A stretch of 32,598 nt of DNA, from assembly GCA_014879575.1 (NCBI GenBank), contig JACSRU010000149.1, forward strand, positions 1 through 32,598, read 5' to 3'. The DNA comes from Chthoniobacterales bacterium (GTDB lineage Bacteria > Verrucomicrobiota > Verrucomicrobiia > Chthoniobacterales > Terrimicrobiaceae). The first letter of the stretch is position 1. Every line of letters starts with the position of its first letter. The position numbers were made by a program, and so were the translations under genes. Below, piece after piece: positions 943 to 22,080 of the stretch. The notes under the pieces are model-generated. The model searched no databases and had not been told where the DNA came from. It worked only from the letters and a program-made list of their open reading frames with translations.

Positions 943-3354
943 TTATTCCGGCGATTCGCGCCAGAATTTTTCAAAGGCTTCCGTCCAGTCGCGGGACTCG
1001 ACTTTTCCGCGACCCGCGAGTCCCATGTGGTGGCGGAGGGAGGGATCTTCCACGAGGCTCCGGATGGCGCCCGCCAACTCCGTGGCATCGAGGGACTTCG
1101 TGACAAAGCCGTCCTTGCCATGTTGCACGAGATCCCTTGGGCCGCCGACATCGGAGACGATGGCGGGAATCCCCGAAGCCTGGGCTTCGAGGACCACATT
1201 GCCGAAAGTGTCCGTTGTGCTGGGAAACACAAAAATATCCGCCGAGGCATAGGCGGCGGCGAGATCCTCGCCCTGGAGATAGCCGGTAAAAATGGCATCC
1301 GGCAGAAGGCGTTTCATGTCATTCATGTAGGGACCGTCGCCCACGAGGAGCGGTCGGGCGGGCACCCTGGCATCCGCCAGACGGCGGGTGGCCGCCACAA
1401 GGACATCCAGATTTTTTTCCTTGGAGACCCTCCCGACAAAAAGCATGCCGGTCTCCCCGTCGCGCAGACCGCGGGACTTCCAGAAGTCCGGATTCCTTTT
1501 TGAGGGATGGAAAAGCCGGGTATCGAGTCCTCTCGGGAGGATGTGCAATTTTTCCCGGGCAATGCCCTTTTCGATCCAGCATTTGCGGTAGTCCTCGGAG
1601 TTCACATAGACGACATCGAGCTGGCTGTAGAACCAATGCATGAAGTTCCAGGTGAGCGTCTCCATGAACGAATCGTCGGTCAGGATGCGGACGTATTGCG
1701 GGAAGTCGGTGTGATAGATTCCGACGGTGCGGAGTCCGAGGGTCTTGGCCGCCGCCAGGGCGCTCAGGCCGGTTGGACCGGGGGTGCTGATGATGATTTC
1801 CGAGAATCCGCCGCGTTCGAGGTAGTCGAAAATTTGGAGTGCCGGCGGAAAACTCAGTCGCTGGAGCTCGTATTCCGGCAGCTCGAATTCCCCGATGGGC
1901 TGGAAATTTTTCAAGGGGATTCCGTGATCTGCGACCTCGGAGCGGCAGGTGATGACCGTGATGTCGTGGCCCGCCGCAGTGCCTGCCGCCGTCATCTTGC
2001 GGATTGTCGTGGCCACGCCGTTCACATCCTCAAGAGTGTCTGTGAACCACGCCCGCTTGCGATTTTTCAGAAGATCCGGGGTGGTTCCACAGAGGGTTCG
2101 GGTGGAATCCCGGAGCCACTCCCGGCGGGGAAGCCGAAAGGCGTGAATATACGGACTGAGCAGCCCGACAAGCGGTGCCGCCGGGATGAGAGTCTGGATG
2201 CTCTCAAAATATTTGCCGGAGGAAATCTGCCGGATGAACTGGGTGACAAACTGGTAGCCGAGCTGGTTGGAGATCAGGTTGGCCATGAGGAAGGCGCGCC
2301 GCTCGGGCTCGGCGACGCCTGCGGTGACCTTCGCGATGGCGGCCTTCATTTCCGGTTTGCCAAAGAACGAAGCCAGATCCTTCCAGAGCGAGGAGGAGCC
2401 GGCTTTTGCCATGTCAAAAATTTTTCCGGTGGCCACCCCTTGGATCAGGAAGCCGAGTTTGTCGGCGAGCGAGAATTCGGTGGGATCCTGGCCCTCCATG
2501 AAACGCGAGAAAATTTTTTCCAGGAGGCTGGTTCCGGGGTCGCCGGGTTTGAGAGAGAGGCGGGCCTTGGCATACTGGAAGGCCGTGCTGTAGGTGCTGT
2601 GGGCGAGGGTGAGGGGGGTTCCGGATTCCCCGCCGGCCTCGCAGGCACCCTTGCGCACATGGTCCAAAAATTCGCGGGACTCCCCGCACTTCGGGGTCGT
2701 CGTGAACGCCCTCGCCGGGTGCGTGCCGCCATGATCATCCGATCCGCCGGTGAAAACTTTTTTCCAGGCTTCCTCATGGGTGGGTGCCAGGCCGGTTCTG
2801 GCGTTGAAAATTTCGATGTGTCGCGGGGTCAATTTGCCGAACACCTCGCGGGTGACATCGCTTACGAGGTGGGAATATCTCCCGTTGATCCCTTCAAAAT
2901 GCCGGAACAACAACGCCAGCTTCTGGAGGTGGAGGGCCGTCAGTTTTTCATTGAGGTTGTGAAACGGGTGGGCAATGGCGTGGGGGATCGCCTCCGCCGC
3001 CAGCAGCGACTGCATATCGTAGATGTTCTCCCGGGCATCCTGGATCTGGCGGTGCTGGGCTTCGGAGATTCCCCAGACGAGGATGTGAACCCGGCATTCG
3101 TCCTCGGGAAAAAACGCGGTGACTTCCTCTCCGATGATGACGTCGGGGAGGTGGGCGATCTCAAGACATCCGCTGATCGTGTTGTGATCGGTGAGTGTGA
3201 CGAAATCCATGCCCGCCGCCTTGAGGCGTTTGTAGGTTTGCAGCGGATCCGAGTAGCTGGCCGGAAAATCCAGACGCCGCAACACCCAGTCTGCCGCACG
3301 ATCACTGTGTCGGGAGTGGATGTGAAGATCTGCGCGGGAGGTTGTTGAGTTCAT
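943..3354 (-). CDS. PHP-domain phosphoesterase fused to GT4 glycosyltransferase
   Basis: An 803-aa two-enzyme protein. The N-terminal PHP domain (about 1-215) has the metal-binding set of the family: HIH at 11-13, TDHN at 55-58, EE at 76-77, AHPFH at 128-132 and SDDHGG at 205-210. The C-terminal part (about 430-800) is a GT-B glycosyltransferase of family 4: a NGVATTI glycine loop, ILPRGLDTRLF, LFVGRVSKEKN, and the DTFGNVVLEA donor-site motif seen in MgtA/PimB-type mannosyltransferases. About 200 residues in between match no family I recognise. The PHP half probably hydrolyses a phosphate ester and the GT half transfers a hexose to a lipid or glycan; the substrates are unknown. There is no signal peptide, so it should be cytoplasmic. 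The gene lies 52 bp downstream of the deacetylase and may be co-transcribed with it. Confidence 0.88.
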   Translation of the reverse strand: MNSTTSRADLHIHSRHSDRAADWVLRRLDFPASYSDPLQTYKRLKAAGMDFVTLTDHNTISGCLEIAHLPDVIIGEEVTAFFPEDECRVHILVWGISEAQHRQIQDARENIYDMQSLLAAEAIPHAIAHPFHNLNEKLTALHLQKLALLFRHFEGINGRYSHLVSDVTREVFGKLTPRHIEIFNARTGLAPTHEEAWKKVFTGGSDDHGGTHPARAFTTTPKCGESREFLDHVRKGACEAGGESGTPLTLAHSTYSTAFQYAKARLSLKPGDPGTSLLEKIFSRFMEGQDPTEFSLADKLGFLIQGVATGKIFDMAKAGSSSLWKDLASFFGKPEMKAAIAKVTAGVAEPERRAFLMANLISNQLGYQFVTQFIRQISSGKYFESIQTLIPAAPLVGLLSPYIHAFRLPRREWLRDSTRTLCGTTPDLLKNRKRAWFTDTLEDVNGVATTIRKMTAAGTAAGHDITVITCRSEVADHGIPLKNFQPIGEFELPEYELQRLSFPPALQIFDYLERGGFSEIIISTPGPTGLSALAAAKTLGLRTVGIYHTDFPQYVRILTDDSFMETLTWNFMHWFYSQLDVVYVNSEDYRKCWIEKGIAREKLHILPRGLDTRLFHPSKRNPDFWKSRGLRDGETGMLFVGRVSKEKNLDVLVAATRRLADARVPARPLLVGDGPYMNDMKRLLPDAIFTGYLQGEDLAAAYASADIFVFPSTTDTFGNVVLEAQASGIPAIVSDVGGPRDLVQHGKDGFVTKSLDATELAGAIRSLVEDPSLRHHMGLAGRGKVESRDWTEAFEKFWRESPE

Positions 3355-12608: not shown

Positions 12609-12612
12609 GCGC

Positions 12613-13299
12613 CTACTTCTTTGAGACGATAATCTCGGGAGCAATCTCCGCGATGAAGGTTTTGAGTGCGGCAAGCGTCTGCTCCTGATTTTTTGCCCCC
12701 GGGACAAAGCCATCCAGAACCGGGGCACTGACGATCACATACGCCCAGCGGTGGCTGACGCCGTGCATGACGCGGTCCCAGTCGGTGTGAAGGATGCGAT
12801 ACCAATGGTGCGGCGTGGTGATGTCCTTTCCGACGAACCAGTAGAGGAAAAGGCTTGTGAGTTCCTTTTTGACTCCCGGCTGGACTTCCACGGGGCGGGA
12901 GATCACAAGCTTCATCACCTCGAGGGTTCGCCCGTCATCGAGTTTGATCGGCAGGGTTTCACTGGTTTTCTTGGTCCACCCCTGTCCCGGCAGGCAGGTC
13001 TCCGGGCGGTGGATGCTGCGTTTTTCTCCGCCGGAGAGCACGATCTGACAACTGACCTGTTCGCCACCGAGGCTGGTATAGACGGATTTTGAGATCTGCG
13101 TGTCTGCAGGGAGAATGAGCTTCTCCGATTCCGAGATTTCCGCAGATTTCCCCGTGAAGGATCCGATGTGCTCCGGAAGCGCCATGTGGACGCCGCTTTC
13201 CATGTTGATCTTCGCGTCGGGGTTTTGTCGCGAGAGAAAATAGGCTCCAATGGCGAGGGCCAGGAAGATTCCACAGCGGAGAAAAAGTTTAGTATTCAT
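12613..13299 (-). CDS. Exosortase-associated EpsI family protein
   Basis: A 228-aa protein with one N-terminal membrane anchor (residues about 5-22, CGIFLALAIGAYFLS), the rest outside the membrane. It matches the EpsI family (methanolan biosynthesis EpsI), which accompanies exosortases or is fused to their C-terminus: SVYTSLGGEQVSCQIV, then SIHRPETCLPGQGW, the family's most conserved block. The later FLYWFVGKD and HWYRILHTDWDRV are also typical. The role is not biochemically settled; in known loci it is needed with the exosortase for EPS export or protein sorting. ATG 13299 is chosen over an upstream start at 13338 because the membrane segment follows it directly; it overlaps the exosortase stop by 11 bases, implying coupled translation. 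Last gene of the operon. Confidence 0.88.
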   Translation of the reverse strand: MNTKLFLRCGIFLALAIGAYFLSRQNPDAKINMESGVHMALPEHIGSFTGKSAEISESEKLILPADTQISKSVYTSLGGEQVSCQIVLSGGEKRSIHRPETCLPGQGWTKKTSETLPIKLDDGRTLEVMKLVISRPVEVQPGVKKELTSLFLYWFVGKDITTPHHWYRILHTDWDRVMHGVSHRWAYVIVSAPVLDGFVPGAKNQEQTLAALKTFIAEIAPEIIVSKK

Positions 13300-14323
13300 C
13301 CTGGCGTTTTTTTCGCAATTCCCCGGGGGTCGAAGCATCCTGCGCCGCGAGTTCCGTCACCGGTGCGGGGTTCGAGAACCGGTCCCTCAGTGAGGAAAAA
13401 TCGGTATGGATCAAGCGGCTGATGCCAAGCATCCCGCCCAGGGCGACGGCAAAAACCACATACCCGGCCAACATGTGGAAAAAGGATGGCTTTTCCAGAG
13501 TTCCGATCGCAATTTCCGGGCCCATGGCAATCGTTCCGAGGGTGAGCATGATAATGCGCGCAAGATTTCCGGCGATGGCGAGTGGGATCGAGCTGAAGAA
13601 CAGGACGGCCCTGCGCCACATTTCCTTTTGTGTGAAGTAGCCGTAAAGGGCGCTTACCATCATGAGGGCGAAGAGGGATCGGATGCCACTGCAGGGGTCC
13701 GCGACATCCACCGAGAATCGCTCGCCGGCCCGCAGTCCGGCCATCGGTTCGGGCGCCGAGAGGATGGCGGTTCCGTTCTTGATGCTTCCAAAACCCAGCA
13801 GGTTCAGGACGTGGACGCTCGCTTCCGACATGATCATGCGCAGTGGGAAGGCAATCAGGTTGTCGAGAAAGGTGAGGGGATACAGGAAGACCAGAAAGGC
13901 CCAGGGGATAAAGAGTGCCTTGGCCCACTCCCATCCGAGAAGCCAGAGAATCAGCCCGCCGGTCAGAATCTGGAAGCTGGCGTAGGCGAAGAAAATGTTG
14001 TCTGCACGGAATCCGAGCCAATAAACAAAGAGGCCAAAAAGGGTCATGGCCAGACCGGCCCAGGATTTCGTGAACGGGACGTCCGGGAGATTTTTTCTCT
14101 GAAACCAGATCATCGCCACAAAAGCGAAGGGGACCAGGTAGCAATGTTGCCAGTCCACGCCCTTCCATTGCGCGTTGGCAAAGTGCAAAACAGTGACCAG
14201 ATCCGAGCCGTAGCCATAGGCGTAGGGATTGACGGCATACAGGAGCCAGAGCGCGAGGAGGGCGCAGCCGATGACTGCGGCAAGCTCAATCAGGCGTTCA
14301 CGGGTGAAGGTGGTGGTGGACAC
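13289..14323 (-). CDS. Exosortase (archaeosortase/exosortase family membrane transpeptidase)
   Basis: An integral membrane cysteine enzyme that cleaves and transfers proteins carrying a C-terminal sorting signal (PEP-CTERM-like). Of 344 residues, about eight hydrophobic segments span 14-300. The family active-site residues are all present: Cys211 in ADPCSGIRS, Arg256 in AIAGNLARI and His283 in FFHMLAGY, so it should be catalytically competent. The final 40 residues are a hydrophilic cytoplasmic tail. The start is GTG at 14323, seven bases after the GT9 stop; no strong ribosome site was seen, in keeping with translational coupling. It is followed by the EpsI-family gene, as in many exosortase loci. 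The subtype (XrtA-XrtX) cannot be assigned by eye. No substrate with a PEP-CTERM tail is encoded in this window. Confidence 0.92.
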   Translation of the reverse strand: MSTTTFTRERLIELAAVIGCALLALWLLYAVNPYAYGYGSDLVTVLHFANAQWKGVDWQHCYLVPFAFVAMIWFQRKNLPDVPFTKSWAGLAMTLFGLFVYWLGFRADNIFFAYASFQILTGGLILWLLGWEWAKALFIPWAFLVFLYPLTFLDNLIAFPLRMIMSEASVHVLNLLGFGSIKNGTAILSAPEPMAGLRAGERFSVDVADPCSGIRSLFALMMVSALYGYFTQKEMWRRAVLFFSSIPLAIAGNLARIIMLTLGTIAMGPEIAIGTLEKPSFFHMLAGYVVFAVALGGMLGISRLIHTDFSSLRDRFSNPAPVTELAAQDASTPGELRKKRQDEY

Positions 14324-14330
14324 GGGCGGG

Positions 14331-15380
14331 TTATTCCGGGATTTTTTCAGAAGGATCGGCGAATATAGCAGAGAGTTTCTCTTCCACCAAGTGGATAGAA
14401 AGCTTTTCCAGACAAATCACCGAAGGCATGACGCAACGGTCCACGCAGGGACGGTGGGGGCAGGCATCGGTGGAAATGGAAAACCGGGCATTTCCAAACG
14501 GGGAAAACCAGGCCGGATCCCCTGAACCAAAAATGGTCGCAACCGGCACTCCCACAGCGGCCGCCAAATGGGAGGCGAGCGAGTCATTGCAAAGAACCGC
14601 ATCGGACATTTCAAAGAGGGCACCCAATTCCGGCACGGAGCGGGGTTCAAAGATCCGCTGGTGGTCGGACTGGGGTTGCGGGCAACTTTCCCCCGGCGGT
14701 TGAATGATGGCGACGGCGAATTTATCGGACGCGAGGCGGCCCCCAAGAAGGGATTGAAAGCGGGGAATCCCCCAGCGTTTGCCGGGAAGTCGCCCGCCGG
14801 GATGCAGGGCGAGAAATTTTTTTCCCTGGGTGCGCGACCGTTCCACGAAAGCCTGGAAGTCCGGGGGAGCCTCCGGGAGGGGAAGCCAGGGAAAGGAATA
14901 GTCGGGCGCGAGTCCCAGAGCCCCTGCGATTTGTGCCCAGCTTTCATCGTGGGTTTGTCCCGTGGGTGCCCGGTCAAGCGGAGTCGTCAGGAAGGAATTC
15001 CCCAGCAACTTTTCCGCAAGCTGGCCGAGGAGAAGGCGGCGTTTCCTCCACGGACGATCCGCGCCGTAAAAATTGTGGGCACTGAGGCGGAATCCGATGC
15101 GTCGTCCGGCGCCGCTCCTTTTCATGGCAAGGTGGGCGCGGGGATCCGGCCACACGCACGCGGCGACATCCTGGTCTCCGAGCTTCGGCAGGTGCGCAAA
15201 CGGCCATTTGTCCGAGGAACGCACCGTGATTTCCGGAACGGCCTCCGTGAAAAAACGATCCGCACGGGAATGGCAAAAAACCGTCGTTTCAAAGACCTTT
15301 GTGGCACTTCGCAGAAACGGCAGTGCCATCACGGCGTCGCCCAGGTGGTGTCGTTCAAAGACAATCAGTCGGGGTTTCAT
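14331..15380 (-). CDS. Glycosyltransferase family 9 (heptosyltransferase-like)
   Basis: A 349-aa cytoplasmic GT-B enzyme related to LPS heptosyltransferases (WaaC/WaaF). It opens with a Rossmann start, LIVFERHHLGDAVMALPFLR, in which the GD pair is diagnostic. The C-terminal donor half shows LALHPGGRLPGKRWG and then CNDSLASHLAAAVGVPVATI followed by FGSGDPAWFSPFG. A Cys-rich segment near the end (CPHRPCVDRCVMPSVIC) is common in the family. It probably transfers a heptose or another sugar to a lipid-linked or core acceptor; the donor is unknown. The frame runs upstream to 15629 but overlaps the preceding gene; ATG 15380 shares the ATGA overlap with that gene's stop and starts right at the Rossmann strand. 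Middle of the glycan/exosortase operon. Confidence 0.88.
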   Translation of the reverse strand: MKPRLIVFERHHLGDAVMALPFLRSATKVFETTVFCHSRADRFFTEAVPEITVRSSDKWPFAHLPKLGDQDVAACVWPDPRAHLAMKRSGAGRRIGFRLSAHNFYGADRPWRKRRLLLGQLAEKLLGNSFLTTPLDRAPTGQTHDESWAQIAGALGLAPDYSFPWLPLPEAPPDFQAFVERSRTQGKKFLALHPGGRLPGKRWGIPRFQSLLGGRLASDKFAVAIIQPPGESCPQPQSDHQRIFEPRSVPELGALFEMSDAVLCNDSLASHLAAAVGVPVATIFGSGDPAWFSPFGNARFSISTDACPHRPCVDRCVMPSVICLEKLSIHLVEEKLSAIFADPSEKIPE

Positions 15381-16153
15381 GAGTGACGGCCTTTCGCAAT
15401 GCGCGCAAACAAAATCCGCTTCATCCGGTAATAGTGCCAGCCGACCGTCCGCATCCAGAGGGCATCCCGGAGCGGACGCCAGTGGATTCCGTATTTTTTT
15501 TGCATGATGCGCGCTTCCTCCCAGGCGGTCGGGAGCTGGCTCCAGGTCTTCGCGTCCGCATGCAGGCGGCTGCAGGCCAGTGGTGCCTGCACATATTTCC
15601 AGTGGGTTTCTCCCGAGATCCGAAGCCAAAATTCATGGTCCATGCAAAACTTCAGGCTGGCATCCAGGAGTCCGAATTTCTCGAACACACGCCGTTGCAA
15701 AAAGACGGCGGGTTGGATGAGAAAATTGCCTTTTCTCAGGCGGTGCCCGGAAAAGGGGCCGACGATTTTCCTTCGCTTCCATCCGGATTCCAAAAAATAA
15801 GCGTCCCCGTAAACCACATCTGCGGAGGGCTCGGCTTTCCAGGCCTCCAGAACCTCCGCCAAGGCCGCCGGCTCCAGCAAATCGTCCGCGCACAGATACG
15901 AGACGATCTGCCCCGAGGTTTGTCGCAGGCCTTTGTTGATGGCATCCGTCTGGCCGTTGTCAGGTTCCGAAATCCAGCGGGCGAGGCTCTGGGAAGCCAG
16001 AAGCTCCCGGGTTTGGTCTGTGCTCCCGCCGTCCACGACGAGGTGCTCAACGGAAACTCCCGCCGTGGCGGCGGCCGCTTGCACGGAATCCAGGCACTCT
16101 CCGAGGAATTGCCCTTGATTCAGGGAGGGGGTGATGAGGGAGACGGTGGGCAT
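15377..16153 (-). CDS. Glycosyltransferase family 2
   Basis: A 258-aa GT-A enzyme that transfers a sugar from a nucleotide donor. The N-terminus gives the family's first strand, VSLITPSLNQGQFLGECLDS, followed by VVDGGSTDQT, DNGQTDAINKG and the metal-binding YLCADDLL. FCMDHEFWLRI later matches the (E/D)D(Y/F)W acceptor-side catalytic motif, here MDHEFW. No membrane segment is present. The start overlaps the preceding WecG-GT4 fusion by 34 bases in another frame, and the start methionine sits directly before the first beta strand, so I trust it. It overlaps the GT9 gene by four bases (ATGA). The sugar added is unknown. It presumably assembles the repeat unit or glycan made by this operon. Confidence 0.88.
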   Translation of the reverse strand: MPTVSLITPSLNQGQFLGECLDSVQAAAATAGVSVEHLVVDGGSTDQTRELLASQSLARWISEPDNGQTDAINKGLRQTSGQIVSYLCADDLLEPAALAEVLEAWKAEPSADVVYGDAYFLESGWKRRKIVGPFSGHRLRKGNFLIQPAVFLQRRVFEKFGLLDASLKFCMDHEFWLRISGETHWKYVQAPLACSRLHADAKTWSQLPTAWEEARIMQKKYGIHWRPLRDALWMRTVGWHYYRMKRILFARIAKGRHS

Positions 16154-18030
16154 GATCGCAAAGGGGAGGGGAGAAGTTCGTCGAAAAGCTGACGGTATCG
16201 CGCCATGACGACATCCCAGCTGAATTTAGCGACGGCTCTCCCGAGCGCAAGACGTCCCAGTTCCGCGCATCGCGAGGGATCGGCGGCGAGGGCGGAGATT
16301 TTTTCCGCGAGCGAATCCACGGGATTCTTTGGGTCGAAGGGCTCCGCGGTTTCGCCGAGGACCTCCCGGGTGGCCGGGCTGTCCTTGAAGAGGATCGCCT
16401 GGCCCATTCCCATCTGATCGAGCAGGACGAGACGTGTGGCTTCGATCGCGGCAGGCATGACAAAATACAGGGCGTTTTGGCTGAGTTCGATGTAGGCATC
16501 CCCAAATCGGGCTCCGGTGAAAATGACCCGGGCATCCGCAAGTTTCCGGAGCTTTTTGTAGTATGCGGTCTCGTAAGTCGGCATGCCGGTGATCACGAGT
16601 TTCAGCGGGCCATCGTATTGCCTCCAGGCTTCCAGAAGGAGGTCGGCCTCGTTTTCCGGAGTCAGGCGCGAGACGTGGAGGATGTAGCCCCTCGGTTCCA
16701 GCCCCCATTTTTTCAGTTCTCCGTTTCGCACGGGTGTCGTGCGAATCTGGCATCCGTAATTGATAAATTCCGGAGTGAGTCCGTAGTCTCTCTGGTATCT
16801 GCTGACAATCTCCCCGTTGTCCGCAATCAGGCGGTCGCCGAGGCGTGTGGCCCAGAGTTCGCTGAGCTTCAACCATTGCCGCGCAAAGGTTCCCCATTTT
16901 GCGCGTCGGAAATCCGCGCCGTCCACATTGATGACGACCGGGAGTCCGAATTTCTTCAGGAACCCGGCCAGGAGGGAATTGCCGACGCCGCAGAGGTAGA
17001 TGAGGTCGTATCCGCGAAAAATCGCATCCACGGCACAGAGCGTCGTATGGATGATCGTGTCGAGGCTCTTGGTGGGAATTGTCGGCCTCGTGATCAGTCG
17101 CATCCCCTTGTGAAAACGGCCCGATGCGACATGTTGGGGGAATCGGTTGTAAACGGTGACATCGTAACCGGCGGCCACCAGCCGGCTGCCGAGTTCCTCG
17201 ACAACCACCTCAAACCCCGAGTAGCGGGCCGGAACTCCGCGCGAGCCGAGAAATGCAATTTTTGTGCGGCGGTCGGAACGGGGCGTTCCCAGAATTTTGT
17301 CGCGGAAAAGATAGTAGAGAAAGAGGCTGTTATATTTGAAATATCTCGGGAAAAGCCGCTTGGGTTCCTGGGCGAGCCGGAAGAGCCATGTCAGTCCGGC
17401 CTTTTGCATCCAGGTCGGGGCAAAGGGACGGCTCCCGGCCAGAAGCTCGAAGGCGTCTCCCACGGCAAAGAAGACACCGCGTTCATGCCGCGGAAGATTT
17501 TTGAGAATCCACCGTTCCTGCCTCTCTCCGCCGAGTGCCACCCAGATGAAGTCGGCGCCGGAAGCGCGGATCATCCCGGCAAATTCCTCCTCGTCGGCTT
17601 CGGTCCATGCGCGGTAGGGCGGGGAAAAGGCGCCGACAATTTCCAGGTCTGGCTGGATTCCCAGGGCGGCGTCCTTCAGACGCATCAGGCAATCCTCGCT
17701 CCCGCCGAAAAAGAAATGTTTGTAGGGCCGGGGGGTATTCTGGAGGACATGCCGCATGAAATACGGGCCATAGACGCGGTCTCCCAATCGGGCTCCCGCA
17801 TTGTTCAGTTGCCAGACGAGGGGGTAGCCGTCCGGAAGCACGAGATCGAAGCGACGCATCACCGCGCCAAATGAGGCATCCTTGCGCGCCAGCGAGATGA
17901 TGTGCGTGTTGCTGGCCGACACGGCCGCCGGTGCCGGGCGCGCTGCCATCCGTTTCACCTCATCCAGCCCGGAGTCGTAATCGGCACAATGGACGGGTGT
18001 GCCAAGGATCGGGTGACTGTTCAGGTGCAT
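16120..18030 (-). CDS. WecG/TagA/CpsF (GT26) domain fused to a DUF1972/GT4 domain
   Basis: A 636-aa fusion. Residues about 1-240 form a WecG/TagA/CpsF transferase: SNTHIISLARKD (near 40), DLVLPDGYPLVW, a KHFFFGGSED segment and WVALGGERQERWI, the family's signature blocks. Such enzymes add N-acetylmannosamine or related sugars to a lipid-linked acceptor. From about 255, TKIAFLGSRGVPARYSGFE starts a DUF1972/GT4 rhamnosyltransferase-like domain, followed by INVDGADFRRAKWG and ILHVSRLTPENEAD. The usual C-terminal E-x7-E block reads AAIEATRLVLLDQMGMGQ, with a DQ pair where EA is expected. ATG 18030 is preferred to an upstream TTG at 18066 because the conserved region begins there. It should add two sugars in succession. 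The C-terminal end is Pro/Ser-rich and overlaps the next gene. Confidence 0.87.
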   Translation of the reverse strand: MHLNSHPILGTPVHCADYDSGLDEVKRMAARPAPAAVSASNTHIISLARKDASFGAVMRRFDLVLPDGYPLVWQLNNAGARLGDRVYGPYFMRHVLQNTPRPYKHFFFGGSEDCLMRLKDAALGIQPDLEIVGAFSPPYRAWTEADEEEFAGMIRASGADFIWVALGGERQERWILKNLPRHERGVFFAVGDAFELLAGSRPFAPTWMQKAGLTWLFRLAQEPKRLFPRYFKYNSLFLYYLFRDKILGTPRSDRRTKIAFLGSRGVPARYSGFEVVVEELGSRLVAAGYDVTVYNRFPQHVASGRFHKGMRLITRPTIPTKSLDTIIHTTLCAVDAIFRGYDLIYLCGVGNSLLAGFLKKFGLPVVINVDGADFRRAKWGTFARQWLKLSELWATRLGDRLIADNGEIVSRYQRDYGLTPEFINYGCQIRTTPVRNGELKKWGLEPRGYILHVSRLTPENEADLLLEAWRQYDGPLKLVITGMPTYETAYYKKLRKLADARVIFTGARFGDAYIELSQNALYFVMPAAIEATRLVLLDQMGMGQAILFKDSPATREVLGETAEPFDPKNPVDSLAEKISALAADPSRCAELGRLALGRAVAKFSWDVVMARYRQLFDELLPSPLRSCPPSPSSPPP

Positions 18031-18062
18031 GCGGGAAGAAACAAGGGGATCAGTGCGGGAAG

Positions 18063-18989
18063 TCAACGTCTGAGTTCGCGGCGGGCCATCCTTTCACGAA
18101 GCGCGGCACCGGACGCCGTGCCTGCCGGGTGCCCAAACAATGCGCCTTGAAGCAGGCAGGTGGCGGCATCCCTGAGACAGGAAAACCCCCACCCATGCGT
18201 ACGAAAAAACCTGCGGAAATTTCCGGGAAGATACCACCACAGGTGACGGCTGTGGGGGGAGTGGAAGGCCAGATACGAGAGATTTTGCAGGAGGGAACAA
18301 AATTTTCGGTAATCGGATTTTCTGGCCGCCTCGCGGTCTGTTTGTTCCGGCGGGAGGTGGGGAATCGCCACCCGGCAGGTAAAGACTCCGCGTCCTGCGC
18401 CGGCCAACCGCATCGAGAATTCCAAGTCCTCCCCGAGCATCCAAAAATCCTTCCGGTGCCGCGCTCCCGCCGCGGCGGCATCCACCAACAGGCAGGCACC
18501 GGTGGCCCAGCAAAACGGATGGGGGCCCGGACCCAGCAGGGCGAGGGCGTCGGCGGGAGTGCGCGCCTGCCGGATTTTCCTCCTGTCGATCTTTGAAACA
18601 GGTTCCGGAAATCCCCAGAGTTCCCCCCGGTCATTTTCGAGCAGGGGGCAGATCGCCGAGGCTCCATGCTTTTCCCGCAGGAGAATTTCCAGCGCGTCCG
18701 GCGGGAGCACAACATCATCATCAAGATATAGAAGATCGGTTTCGCCAAAAACCTCTCGGGCGATCCGAGCACCATTCGCCCACCCTGCGCCGGGCCCCGG
18801 ATTGGACAGATCTTGAACCCGTCGGATGGGAAAGGGAAAGCGTGCCGAGATTTCCCCGGGAACCGTCCCCGCATGGTCCATCACCACGCAGCCCTGAAAG
18901 GGAACGGACGATTGGGCCATGCTCGCAAGGAGCCGTTCCAATTCGCGTTCCCGCCTCCACGTGACCACCACTGCCACCACGCGGTTCAT
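18063..18989 (-). CDS. Glycosyltransferase family 2 (rhamnosyl-/galactofuranosyltransferase-like)
   Basis: A 308-aa GT-A enzyme of the subgroup that includes rhamnosyl and GlfT2-like transferases. Visible motifs: VVAVVVTWRRERELERLLAS at the N-terminus, NPGPGAGWANG (the family's N.G.agg.N.G block), the metal-binding YLDDDVVL, and FWMLGEDLEFSMRLAGAG, whose ED pair is the expected catalytic base. The C-terminal 100 residues are Arg/His/Trp-rich and may lie along the membrane. ATG 18989 is chosen over 19001 because it forms an ATGA overlap with the upstream reductase. If the reductase makes a rhamnose donor, this enzyme is a good candidate user; that is inference. Confidence 0.87.
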   Translation of the reverse strand: MNRVVAVVVTWRRERELERLLASMAQSSVPFQGCVVMDHAGTVPGEISARFPFPIRRVQDLSNPGPGAGWANGARIAREVFGETDLLYLDDDVVLPPDALEILLREKHGASAICPLLENDRGELWGFPEPVSKIDRRKIRQARTPADALALLGPGPHPFCWATGACLLVDAAAAGARHRKDFWMLGEDLEFSMRLAGAGRGVFTCRVAIPHLPPEQTDREAARKSDYRKFCSLLQNLSYLAFHSPHSRHLWWYLPGNFRRFFRTHGWGFSCLRDAATCLLQGALFGHPAGTASGAALRERMARRELRR

Positions 18990-19855
18990 GCCTTCTTCCA
19001 AGCCCGCAATGTTTTTTCGAGCGATTCATGGACCTCAAGCATCCGGATTCCGTGTGCCGCAAGCTTCCCCGGATCCAGGACACAGCTCGCTCGGAACACC
19101 CGCCCGGGATGCGATAAAAAATCCGTCTCATCCGTAAAATACTGGAAGTCCTTCCGGCAGATTCCATGCGCTCGAAGCGCATTTGCAACCTCACTCGTGA
19201 GGATCGCCCCCGGATTGGTCGCATTGTAAATCCCATCCGGAATCCGATCCTCAAGCGATTGCACGGCCGCCGCCGCGAACTCATCGAGTTGGGAAATCGA
19301 ATTCCGCACCTCCAGCAACCGCTCATAGCGCATCAGCTTTGTCAGGTAATTCCTTTCGTTGTCCTCGGCGTTGAAGGGAATCCGCGGTCGCCAGATCACG
19401 ACGCCCGGCGCATCCCGGAGCAACTTTTCCGCCATCCACTTCGTGCGGGCATACCACCCGGCCCGCGGGTCGCTGATCGCAAACTCCGGTTCCTCCTCCT
19501 CGGTGAATCCCGATCCCTTCGCGTGTGCCCCATGGAAAATGCATCCGGAGGAGACATGCCCCCAGCGAATTCCGCGCGATCCCAACACCTCCGCCAGCAC
19601 GCCGGGCACAACCGTGTTGGCTTGCAGGCAGTGCCATTTCTCGATCTCGGTGCCATCAATGTTCGGACGTCCGGTGAAGCCCACCGCATTGATCACGAAT
19701 TCCGGAGTTCTTCCCGCAAACCAACCCGCGACGGCATCCTTCGAAGTCAGATCCAGATCGCGATGACTCGGAGCAGCAAACTCCCGCCCGAGCTGTCGAA
19801 GTCTCGCCGCTATCGCGCTTCCAACATAACCCGTGGCACCAAGGAGAACGATCAT
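18986..19855 (-). CDS. Nucleotide-sugar 4-ketoreductase, RmlD/plant NRS-ER-like
   Basis: A 289-aa short-chain dehydrogenase/reductase of the extended class. It has the NAD(P) motif GATGYVG (6-12), INAVGFTGRPNID (55-67), SSGCIFHG (102-109) and the catalytic pair Tyr135/Lys139 (YARTK). GFTGRPN, the SGCIF block, and the NYLTKLMRYE and NATNPG stretches recall the plant bifunctional UDP-rhamnose enzyme NRS/ER (UER1) and mimiviral reductase L780 more than standard bacterial RmlD, from memory of those sequences. It probably reduces a 4-keto-6-deoxy sugar to a rhamnose-type donor; no 4,6-dehydratase is in this window. First gene of the operon, with a good AGGGA ribosome site about eight bases before the ATG. 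Confidence 0.85.
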   Translation of the reverse strand: MIVLLGATGYVGSAIAARLRQLGREFAAPSHRDLDLTSKDAVAGWFAGRTPEFVINAVGFTGRPNIDGTEIEKWHCLQANTVVPGVLAEVLGSRGIRWGHVSSGCIFHGAHAKGSGFTEEEEPEFAISDPRAGWYARTKWMAEKLLRDAPGVVIWRPRIPFNAEDNERNYLTKLMRYERLLEVRNSISQLDEFAAAAVQSLEDRIPDGIYNATNPGAILTSEVANALRAHGICRKDFQYFTDETDFLSHPGRVFRASCVLDPGKLAAHGIRMLEVHESLEKTLRAWKKA

Positions 19856-19883
19856 GGAGCATTCCCTACCAGTTGCCCGCTCC

Positions 19884-19906
19884 GCTTGCCAGATTTTGTC
19901 GCAAGC
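19884..19906. repeat. Inverted repeat upstream of the glycan operon
   Basis: GCTTGC and GCAAGC form a perfect 6-bp inverted repeat separated by 11 bases, 29 to 51 bases upstream of the first operon gene. It could be an operator or a leader hairpin for the minus-strand operon. No clear -10/-35 pair for that operon was found. Confidence 0.3.
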
Positions 19907-19941
19907 AGAACCGTCTCCTCCCCGACAACCGGGGTTTGCCG

Positions 19942-19960
19942 TTCCAAAAAAAATTTGGAA
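19942..19960. repeat. Perfect A/T-rich inverted repeat before the tRNA promoter
   Basis: TTCCAAAAAAAATTTGGAA is a perfect 7-bp inverted repeat with an A5 centre. It ends seven bases before the -35 box of the tRNA promoter. Its A-tract and position suit an UP element or a bending site; a protein-binding site is also possible. Confidence 0.4.
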
Positions 19961-19967
19961 AGAAAAG

Positions 19968-19995
19968 TTGCAAGCCCGCCTCCGTCCGTCATAAT
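19968..19995 (+). promoter_or_regulatory. Sigma-70 promoter of tRNA-Asp
   Basis: TTGCAA (19968-19973) and CATAAT (19990-19995) are 16 bases apart. The predicted start lies near 20002, seven bases before the mature tRNA, a sensible 5' leader. The position relative to the tRNA supports the call. Confidence 0.6.
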
Positions 19996-20008
19996 CCGCA
20001 GTCTCTTT

Positions 20009-20085
20009 GGAGTCTTAGCTCAATTGGTTAGAGCGCTGCCCTGTCACGGCAGAGGTTGCGGGTTCGAGCCCCGTAGACTCCGCCA
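20009..20085 (+). tRNA. tRNA-Asp (anticodon GTC)
   Basis: A 77-nt cloverleaf including encoded CCA. The acceptor stem GGAGTCT pairs fully with AGACTCC, followed by G73 and CCA. The anticodon arm CTGCC-CTGTCAC-GGCAG places GTC at 20043-20045, reading the Asp codons GAC and GAU. The T-arm shows GGTTCGAGCC and the D-arm TAGCTCAATTGGTTAGAGC. The gene is single, with no tRNA neighbours visible. Confidence 0.97.
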
Positions 20086-20099: not shown

Positions 20100-20121
20100 A
20101 AAATCGCCCGCAAACCCTGAT

Positions 20122-20226
20122 GGATAAAGCCACCTGGTCTTCCTTGTCCAACCGCGTTAGCACCGCCGCCGAATCAACTTCCAACACGTAGTATTTCGCG
20201 AGAGTGGAGGTATCGCAGAAAATCAT
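20122..20226 (-). pseudogene. Truncated PIN-domain (VapC-like) toxin remnant
   Basis: The minus strand encodes about 35 residues beginning MIFCDTSTLAKYYVLEVDS, a recognisable start of a PIN-domain ribonuclease; Asp5 would be the first metal-binding acidic residue. Similarity stops at about codon 35 (VALS). After that the frame runs into the trailer and antisense of tRNA-Asp, giving meaningless residues and a stop. A full VapC has about 130 residues and three more acidic sites, so this copy cannot work. Its start overlaps the stop of the antitoxin tail in the usual vapBC manner. Confidence 0.6.
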
Positions 20227-20289
20227 TGCCGATCACCGCGCACCGCCGCCAAGTCTTCGAGGACCGCATTCGGGTCAGCGTCCGCTGTG
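20223..20289 (-). pseudogene. C-terminal tail of a VapB/Phd-like antitoxin (remnant)
   Basis: A frame ending ADPNAVLEDLAAVRGDRQ and TGA overlaps the toxin fragment's ATG by three bases. The acidic/hydrophobic tail and the ATGA coupling are what an antitoxin C-terminus looks like. Upstream it merges into the end of the membrane-protein gene, so the N-terminal DNA-binding part is absent. With only about 20 residues, the family cannot be assigned. Confidence 0.4.
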
Positions 20290-22080
20290 AATTTCGAGGA
20301 TTTTTCCCTTGGGCGAGCGAAGGATTTTCAGATTCTCATCGAATTCAAATTCCACGATGGCGGGTTTGGGGGCGAACCAGGGAAAGGGACTCACCCGGAT
20401 GCGATCACCCTCGCGGGTGAAGCGTTCGACCACCGCCTCGGGGACCGGTGGTGCCGGGGGGCGGAGGAAGGAAACCGGGCGGGCGAATGCGAGCTTGGAA
20501 AGGGCGAGGAAACTGAGTAGGCACCAGACTGCCACGACGGCGCGGGCGGGCCGCACGGGAAGATGGGGGCCGACCAGCACGAAGGCGCACCCAAGAATCC
20601 CAAAGGCAAATCCCGCCGAGAAACGCAACGACGGAACTTGGGACAGATTCCAGGCGAGACCAAGGAGGGAAAGGCCGGCAGGAATCCCCAGGCTGCGGAT
20701 TCCTGGCCATAGGTTCGTCCGGGTTTTCATGAGAACACCGGCCCCGAGGACTGCTCCGGCGGCCGCGCTGCCGGCAACAAGGAGATTGGTCAAAGCGCTT
20801 TGACCATACAGCCAGAGTTTCCATGTCGGAGTGGTGCGAACAATCTCCGCGCTGGCTCCATAGGTGAAGGCCCAACTCCTGGCGCGTTCGACGGTAAAAT
20901 CCGGCAGCCAGGCGGGAAGTTGCCAGGGGGCGGGAAACGCTCCGCCAAGGGTTGATGGAAACAGGGGATACCCACTGAGCAACCATCCGTGGAAAAGGTA
21001 TGCCACTCCGCACAGGGCAAGGGGCATAAGGCGCAGCGCATGACCGAAGACCGGAATGGCGTTCCGGGAATTCTTGAGGAGAAGGACGAGCCCTCCTCCG
21101 ACGAGCCAGACGAGACCGCATGCCAAGAGCGGCGAGGCGCTCAACTTTGCCGTTGCCGCCAGGAGTGCCAGTGCCAGGAACGAGCGACCACCCGCCGTTG
21201 TGATGAAAAGGAACCCTTCGGCTCGCCCGAATCGAACGACGAACCAGATCGCGGAAAGAACGACAAGATTGGCGGGAATATCGGTGGTGGGCGAAGGGGT
21301 GTTTAACCCCACCACCTGCCGCAACCAAAGATAAAGCGCCGGCAACCAAAACCAATCCGCCCCGTCCGCTTCCCGACGAAGAACGCGGAGCAGTGCCCCC
21401 CAAAGAAGGACCCCTGTCGCAACCAAAACGGGCCCACTCACACTGACCGCCCCGAGGGGTGCGCCCCAAGGCCAGGACATCAACCCTGCCAGCATCCACC
21501 AGGAGGTGTTGTAGCTAAAGACCGAGGTGACGTTTGCCAGTCCCCGGATGACGGGCTCCTCCGCCATCCACATGATGGCCTGGGCATGGTATCCGCCCGT
21601 GTCCCCATGAACCATCAGGCGGGCGGCAAAGAGGGACACAAAAAACGCGACCCCACCAAAAAGAACACCCCCCTGGAGGGACGACCTCCGTGTCGTCCGC
21701 CCATCGTCAAAAAGACCGCCCCCCTGGAGGGACGACCTCCGTGTCGTCCGCCCGTCGCCAAAAAGACCATCACCCTGGAGGCACAGTCGAGACCCCAGGC
21801 AAAACCCCAAACCCGTCCCAAGCACCAAGGGGCCCGGCCAGCCCGCAAGGGGAGCCGCAAGATGGCAGAGGAACCCCATCGTAACAACCGGAACATGCCC
21901 AAGGAGAATCAGGAACGCCATGCGATCCGCCCCTCGCAGCGACTCGGGCAGCGCTCCAAGCACGCGCTGGAGAGCAGCCCCCCACCCGAGCAGACCCAAG
22001 CCCCAACAGGTGATGAAAAGAAAAAGGAATAACATTTGGAAAGCCGGAATCTCTGCCGTCAAGATTGACAATCCCTTCAT
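20275..22080 (-). CDS. Large multi-pass membrane protein (resembles LIC_10190 family)
   Basis: A 601-aa protein with a dozen or so hydrophobic segments from about residue 15 to 530, then a soluble tail of about 70 residues. The block DTGGYHAQAIMWMAEEPVIR, followed by GLANVTSVFSYNTSW, resembles the LIC_10190-type membrane proteins, which look like GT-C-fold glycosyltransferases; this is from memory and the function is unproven. An acidic residue in the first loop (HGDTG) would be the place for a GT-C catalytic Asp. Residues about 100-141 are an insertion made of 17-residue repeats encoded by a DNA tandem repeat, falling between membrane segments. ATG 22080 has no ribosome site; the in-frame ATG at 22035 is an alternative. 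It could serve the neighbouring glycan operon, though the tRNA and a scar separate them. Confidence 0.7.
   Translation of the reverse strand: MKGLSILTAEIPAFQMLFLFLFITCWGLGLLGWGAALQRVLGALPESLRGADRMAFLILLGHVPVVTMGFLCHLAAPLAGWPGPLVLGTGLGFCLGSRLCLQGDGLFGDGRTTRRSSLQGGGLFDDGRTTRRSSLQGGVLFGGVAFFVSLFAARLMVHGDTGGYHAQAIMWMAEEPVIRGLANVTSVFSYNTSWWMLAGLMSWPWGAPLGAVSVSGPVLVATGVLLWGALLRVLRREADGADWFWLPALYLWLRQVVGLNTPSPTTDIPANLVVLSAIWFVVRFGRAEGFLFITTAGGRSFLALALLAATAKLSASPLLACGLVWLVGGGLVLLLKNSRNAIPVFGHALRLMPLALCGVAYLFHGWLLSGYPLFPSTLGGAFPAPWQLPAWLPDFTVERARSWAFTYGASAEIVRTTPTWKLWLYGQSALTNLLVAGSAAAGAVLGAGVLMKTRTNLWPGIRSLGIPAGLSLLGLAWNLSQVPSLRFSAGFAFGILGCAFVLVGPHLPVRPARAVVAVWCLLSFLALSKLAFARPVSFLRPPAPPVPEAVVERFTREGDRIRVSPFPWFAPKPAIVEFEFDENLKILRSPKGKILEIHSGR
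21658..21782. repeat. 51-bp tandem repeat (about 2.5 copies) with internal palindrome
   Basis: Copies begin at 21658, 21709 and 21760 (the third is partial and diverged). Each full copy contains GGACGAC-CTCCGT-GTCGTCC, a perfect 7-bp stem, at 21679-21698 and 21730-21749. The two full copies differ at only a few positions. The 51-bp period is 17 codons, so the host frame stays open, coding a repeated GLF.DGRTTRRSSLQGG unit. It looks like a REP-type palindromic element that entered and duplicated within a gene. Confidence 0.88.

Follow-up and report, generated by a model that had tools for sequence, protein, structure and literature searches.

A Verrucomicrobiota glycosyltransferase operon ending in an exosortase-EpsI pair is probably part of a split exopolysaccharide/PEP-CTERM system

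Why should an exosortase be encoded at the tail of a glycosyltransferase operon that contains neither a polymerase nor a flippase? The exosortase gene epsH is nearly always found among exopolysaccharide genes, EpsI follows EpsH, and PEP-CTERM was first seen in Verrucomicrobium spinosum (PMC1569441, Haft et al. 2006). We examined this question at a seven-gene locus of a Chthoniobacterales bacterium (assembly GCA_014879575.1; 3.60 Mb in 178 contigs, ~98% complete), within a 32,598-nucleotide stretch of contig JACSRU010000149.1 that we call the window. Our analysis indicates that the operon probably supplies the sugar-assembly half of an exopolysaccharide pathway, one that operates in concert with the main PEP-CTERM exosortase of the cell.

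The seven genes occupy 12613-19855 on the minus strand. Families were assigned with Pfam and NCBIfam models, and junctions were determined by base-by-base reading of that strand. In order of the genes, the features are:

18986-19855, minus strand: RmlD-like sugar-nucleotide reductase (SDR), first gene of the operon; PF04321 (RmlD_sub_bind), 67.5 bits
18063-18989, minus strand: GT2a, GT2-like glycosyltransferase, ATG start, 4-base overlap with the RmlD-like gene; PF13641, 22.7 bits, below cut-off
16120-18030, minus strand: WecG/TagA (GT26)-GT4 fusion glycosyltransferase, 32-base gap to GT2a; PF03808, 153.6 bits
15377-16153, minus strand: GT2b, family 2 glycosyltransferase, 34-base overlap with the WecG-GT4 gene; PF00535 (Glycos_transf_2), 66.8 bits
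14331-15380, minus strand: GT9, heptosyltransferase-like glycosyltransferase, ATG start, 4-base ATGA overlap with GT2b; PF01075 (Glyco_transf_9), 43 bits
13289-14323, minus strand: exosortase (EpsH family), GTG start, 7-base gap to GT9; PF09721 (Exosortase_EpsH), 150.9 bits
12613-13299, minus strand: EpsI, exosortase-associated protein, 11-base overlap with the exosortase gene; PF11984 (DUF3485), 71.9 bits

A preliminary description of the window had listed the same seven genes and junctions (overlaps of 4, 34, 4 and 11 bases; gaps of 32 and 7), and on base-level reading these are exact. A mechanical call that began GT9 at TTG 15629 is wrong; the bases favor a start at 15380. Judged by their spacing, the seven genes are likely to share a single transcript.

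Five glycosyltransferase domains and the RmlD-like reductase are thus encoded upstream of the exosortase, and the GT4, two GT2 and GT9 domains should allow a repeat unit of several sugars to be assembled. As established for TagA and WecG, members of the WecG family transfer the second sugar onto a first one linked to undecaprenyl. The WecG-GT4 fusion also scored above the TIGR00696 cut-off and has a solved homologue (7mpk, E 9e-20). The reductase, at 53.6 bits, fell under the cut-off of 224 for TIGR01214. To place these genes among relatives, we surveyed 58 genomes of the order, our own genome included. Most are draft metagenome assemblies in which contig ends cut neighborhoods, and gene calling in neighboring stretches used a simple script based on codon bias, which may miss small genes. 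The reductase keeps its position in six relatives (G001, G003, G006, G009, G010 and G012), GT2a copies at the matching position are 46-74% identical, and GT2b is syntenic.

The exosortase passed both membership thresholds (TIGR02602, 117.9 bits with a cut-off of 105.55; PF09721, where the cut-off is 25.7). Of its proposed active-site residues, C211 and R256 are invariant in all 58 exosortases aligned and H283 is present in 57. No named exosortase subtype exceeded its NCBIfam cut-off, the best scores being XrtD 132/400, XrtA 118/208, XrtW 110/425 and XrtV 96/313. In our tree, the enzyme falls in a supported clade (97/99) that spans Chthoniobacterales, subdivision 6 and Verrucomicrobiales. By these sequence comparisons, it belongs to a Verrucomicrobiota clade that fits no named subtype. 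A sequence search found no solved relative. The clade lies apart from the types to which the genome's two other exosortases belong. One of these, on contig C120, has a fused, EpsI-like C-terminus, and its relatives in the tree have tails of 202-236 residues. The other, on contig C84 (L062), is short (295 aa) and lacks EpsI; a NusG-like protein is encoded nearby, as at some polysaccharide loci.

EpsI scored above the cut-off for PF11984 (26.1) and just under that for TIGR02914 (41.3 bits against 42.8). Its single N-terminal helix is predicted to cross the membrane, and its structure model has a pLDDT of 90. Invariant H97, R98 and C102 lie within an HRPExC motif, which suggests a functional site. 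Its fold has no confident relative: the best Foldseek match had an E of 4e-3, and a second structural comparison gave the EagR-type chaperone SciW (Z 8.6) and PsbP-, Mog1- and DcrB-like folds (7-8), barely above the usual background. EpsI adjoins the exosortase in most orthologs with context, the exceptions being L110, L111, L113, L114 and L116. In three of these loci (L110, L113 and L114, all genus g2), the exosortase is preceded by a conserved protein of 340-353 residues, which had no Pfam match in the copy tested.

Does this exosortase have substrates? The preliminary description had named a genome devoid of PEP-CTERM-like C-termini as one case that would refute its proposal. Our genome instead contains 36 matches over the cut-off of Pfam PF07589 and 47 over that of TIGR02595. 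With 36-47 such signals, nearly all of them C-terminal, the exosortase therefore has substrates. Of the 37 loci read, 36 have a frame that ends no more than 40 residues from the motif, and in these [VI]PEP is followed by a hydrophobic stretch and a basic tail, the canonical layout. The match at L023 was rejected as N-terminal and spurious. By a simple rule, 16 of the 21 PEP-CTERM proteins with a complete N-terminus have a signal-peptide-like start.

The survey connects these proteins with the clade. Where the window ortholog is the sole exosortase (G005, G006, G007, G009, G010, G012 and G056), the genome encodes 21-100 PEP-CTERM proteins, with the highest counts in G006 (100), G009 (96) and G012 (96). 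G036 is an exception: the ortholog is its only exosortase, yet it has 2. The median was 24 in genomes with the ortholog and 3 in those with only other exosortases, and genomes without any exosortase ranged from 0 to 3. The congener G002, which lacks the ortholog and has three other exosortases, has 7, compared to 19-43 in its three congeners. Among genomes with the ortholog, those that also carry the glycosyltransferase block have more PEP-CTERM proteins than those without it (p = 0.001; genus level, 0.03).

We then asked how closely the block is tied to the exosortase. Fifteen of the 58 genomes have a WecG-GT4 fusion of the window type, and the exosortase ortholog is present in 14 of them (Fisher p = 5e-6; genus level, 9e-4), so the association of glycan genes with the exosortase/EpsI pair noted in the preliminary description is borne out. 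The two are linked in 12 genomes, and the arrangement varies. G007 has the block inverted, on the opposite flank of the exosortase-EpsI pair; G014 has it relocated downstream; in family f12, an RmlD-like gene lies between GT9 and the exosortase; and in subdivision 6, block and exosortase stand in another arrangement. Because linkage survives these rearrangements, we favor a functional tie. The recurring gene order and the rearranged but retained linkage also rule out chance clustering. The same observations bear on the idea that the glycosyltransferases make lipopolysaccharide (LPS) core or O-antigen and lie near the exosortase for historical reasons only. That idea draws on the heptosyltransferase-like GT9, on a congener whose operon lacks the exosortase (G001, below) and on the many ortholog genomes without the block. 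Set against it are the linkage that has outlasted inversion, relocation and reordering, the presence of the ortholog in 14 of the 15 block genomes, and a Verrucomicrobiaceae ortholog that lies inside a Wzx/Wzy cluster. We regard a mere historical neighborhood as very improbable.

The preliminary description had called the operon one without polymerase or flippase. This is true of the 32.6 kb window, where we found neither, and does not extend to the genome, which has both elsewhere. Wzy_C genes are on contigs C112, C142 (two), C62, C171 and C13, ruling out the lack of a polymerase as a genome-level fact. Wza is encoded on C13 and C112, Wzx-like proteins on C87 and C110, and initiating transferases on C124, C13 and C113. 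Thus, polymerase, flippase and export genes are all in the genome, on contigs other than the operon's. The loci on C142 (L190), C62 (L191) and C171 (L192) are paralogous; each encodes a 564-residue protein, one of 509-777 residues and a Wzy_C protein of 441-446 residues, with an MDWGxGNPN start. Within the window, a LIC_10190-family multi-transmembrane protein encoded upstream of the operon (20275-22080) was considered as polymerase or transfer enzyme and rejected, as it has no Pfam match and is absent beside the operon in G003.

The polymerase locus on C112 (L183:8318-14200, plus strand) stood out. It is a four-gene module encoding a Wzy (TPR), a BBP2_2 barrel, Wzc and Wza, with an adjoining bactofilin gene, and the gene calls for the stretch that was read included no glycosyltransferase. 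In NCBIfam, the barrel matched one model only, TIGR03016 (PEP-CTERM system-associated outer-membrane protein; 34 bits), and Wzc matched that of the XrtA-associated tyrosine kinase (133 bits); both scores are below cut-off. The module recurs in relatives. Every one of the 15 block genomes has a C112-type Wzy. Among the 34 genomes that encode a stand-alone exosortase from this clade or the neighboring one, 33 have it, compared to 7 of the remaining 24 (p = 3e-8; genus level, 0.001). This Wzy gene and the exosortase gene are separated by 13-17 kb in family f9, by ~31 kb in G006 and G009, and by 54 kb in G003. In the Verrucomicrobiaceae locus L164, the ortholog is clustered with EpsI, WecG, Wzy and Wzx, and the best match of this Wzy in our genome is the C112 Wzy (34%, E 1e-43 vs 9e-8). 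The C112 module, its co-distribution and the L164 cluster together lead us to read the incompleteness of the operon as that of a split locus. Since the Wzy-barrel-Wzc-Wza module exists and co-distributes with the exosortase class, an exopolysaccharide is the simplest reading of the product, and the module suggests that this product is a polymer.

The glycan could instead be destined for the sorted proteins themselves, the reading put forward in the preliminary description. Here the operon's lipid-linked oligosaccharide would be moved to Ser/Thr side chains of PEP-CTERM proteins before their release by exosortase. Glycosylation of PEP-CTERM proteins has been proposed (PMC4960237), and a putative O-glycosylation ligase family, TIGR03097, is known to accompany exosortase A. 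Ser+Thr content averaged 23% in 35 PEP-CTERM proteins and 11% in the proteins of the window, a comparison tempered by the fact that secreted proteins are often Ser/Thr-rich anyway and that the window set is mostly not secreted. However, none of the five Wzy proteins from our genome that were tested exceeded the TIGR03097 cut-off of 188.1 (three scored 22-28 bits and two had no match), and the co-distributed Wzy-Wzc-Wza export module is more readily reconciled with a long exported polymer. Compared with an exopolysaccharide/PEP-CTERM system, a locus dedicated to protein glycosylation is thus less likely, and we consider it improbable.

Several observations weigh against the exopolysaccharide reading. 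The preliminary description had tied its proposal to co-conservation of the seven genes. Neither of the two outcomes that it said would refute this was observed, and 14 of 15 block genomes keep the ortholog. In the other direction the tie is looser: the block is missing from 11 of the 25 genomes with the ortholog, so this glycan is dispensable for the exosortase. In the congener G001, the order RmlD-GT2a-WecG/GT4-GT2b-GT9-EpsI is kept (L187) with EpsI directly behind GT9, and the exosortase gene is outside the operon; it is divided between two contigs (L123/L124) that overlap by exactly matching 141 bases. In G002, only WecG-GT4 remains of the operon. Coupling of the glycan block to the exosortase is therefore not strict and is looser than a single operon would imply. 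Of the 14 genomes that have other exosortases only, 6 also encode a C112-type Wzy, as does 1 of the 10 without an exosortase; in our assembly, moreover, the module is unlinked to the operon. Because the genome has several other Wzy and three initiating-transferase genes, assignment of the pathway is not unique. GT2a, whose 22.7 bits fall under the Pfam cut-off, is a GT2 by weak similarity. Finally, the genus-level tests applied to our co-distribution statistics remove shared ancestry only partly.

The genomes without the block also bear on a further possibility, that the glycan is an acceptor. Exosortase would join the new C-terminus of a PEP-CTERM protein to the operon's lipid-linked glycan, much as sortase uses lipid II and PorU uses A-LPS. 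The operon linkage of glycosyltransferases and exosortase that persists through rearrangements is in line with this idea. So are the anchoring of type IX secretion cargo by a glycolipid, for which a parallel to exosortases has been stated (PMC7468200), and the suggested covalent linkage of CrtB to polysaccharide (PMC12188702). However, PEP-CTERM proteins number up to 28 per genome in the 11 ortholog genomes that lack the block, so the operon's glycan cannot be an obligate acceptor, and we judge an acceptor role unlikely. Stated for the clade, the proposal would be that these exosortases use the undecaprenyl-linked glycan of adjoining glycosyltransferases, where present, as acceptor, that PEP-CTERM proteins are covalently held in the polysaccharide that the Wzy-barrel-Wzc-Wza module exports and that EpsI presents the substrate; we give this form, too, only a small chance of being right.

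A model built on the exopolysaccharide reading has four steps. A polyprenyl glycosylphosphotransferase encoded elsewhere would place the first sugar on undecaprenyl phosphate. The WecG domain would add the second sugar, and GT4, the two GT2 enzymes and GT9 would lengthen the repeat unit; the RmlD-like reductase would contribute to the synthesis of a deoxy-sugar donor. Polymerization and export of the glycan would then fall to a flippase and the Wzy-barrel-Wzc-Wza proteins of C112, both encoded elsewhere. Lastly, exosortase, aided by EpsI, would cut PEP-CTERM proteins off their membrane anchor, and the freed proteins may leave with the polysaccharide and be held in its matrix.

How does this compare with known systems? 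PEP-CTERM proteins stabilize cell-surface polysaccharide in floc-forming bacteria and Nostoc, and in Nostoc dispersed glycosyltransferase loci serve one polysaccharide (PMC12188702). As in the PEP-CTERM/EpsH system of Haft et al. (2006), our locus has an EpsH-family exosortase with catalytic C, R and H, EpsI directly downstream (as in Methylobacillus sp. 12S), adjoining exopolysaccharide glycosyltransferases, and many PEP-CTERM proteins with VPEP, a hydrophobic stretch and a basic tail. Unlike in that system, polymerase, chain-length kinase and Wza are on another contig without glycosyltransferases, the exosortase clade has no named NCBIfam subtype, and a WecG-GT4 fusion is the core transferase. 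The cyanoexosortase B/hormogonium polysaccharide system of Nostoc punctiforme (PMC12188702) is similar in that the exosortase co-occurs with polysaccharide genes dispersed over loci and a Wzx/Wzy-type system is correlated with the rest. However, crtB there shares a locus with the Wzx/Wzy export genes, and it is other glycosyltransferase loci that are dispersed, the reverse of the situation here. The type IX secretion sortase with its A-LPS anchor (PMC7468200) likewise ties surface-protein processing genetically to glycan synthesis, although exosortase is an unrelated membrane enzyme. A paper on the Akkermansia capsule (PMC13343947) does not mention exosortase.

The surroundings of the operon contain the following features:

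19856-20008, minus strand: intergenic region upstream of the RmlD-like gene, from its position the probable site of the operon promoter, bounded by a divergent tRNA-Asp
20009-20085, plus strand: tRNA-Asp, divergent, upstream of the operon

No minus-strand match to a sigma-70-like promoter was found in 19856-20008, and across the operon region sigma-70-like promoters and terminators occurred at chance level only. At the other end, gltD is convergent with the operon and ends 4 bases from the end of EpsI, with no terminator-like site in between (12609-12612). By eye, a minus-strand frame at 20100-20260 that begins MIFCDTSTLAKYYV, typical of PIN-domain (VapC) toxins, runs into the tRNA-Asp gene and looks like a remnant. 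Farther away (943-3354, minus strand) is a gene for an 803-residue protein with a GT4 domain, whose N-terminal half resembles, by eye, a PHP-type metal-binding domain (DLHIHSRHSD), an unusual fusion.

The pairing of exosortase with exopolysaccharide genes is already known (PMC1569441). What we add is modest: a clade of Verrucomicrobiota exosortases outside the named subtypes, the WecG-GT4 block that goes with it, and a co-distributing export module, encoded separately and free of glycosyltransferases. For annotation, the locus is a warning that an operon without polymerase or flippase is not necessarily an incomplete pathway. Seven contiguous genes and a four-gene export module form a compact, testable set, and natural variants exist: G001, with its exosortase outside the operon; G002, with a reduced block; and G006, G009 and G012, each with a single exosortase and ~100 PEP-CTERM proteins. 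The locus thereby bears on the role of exosortases after PEP-CTERM cleavage and on their association with polysaccharide genes.

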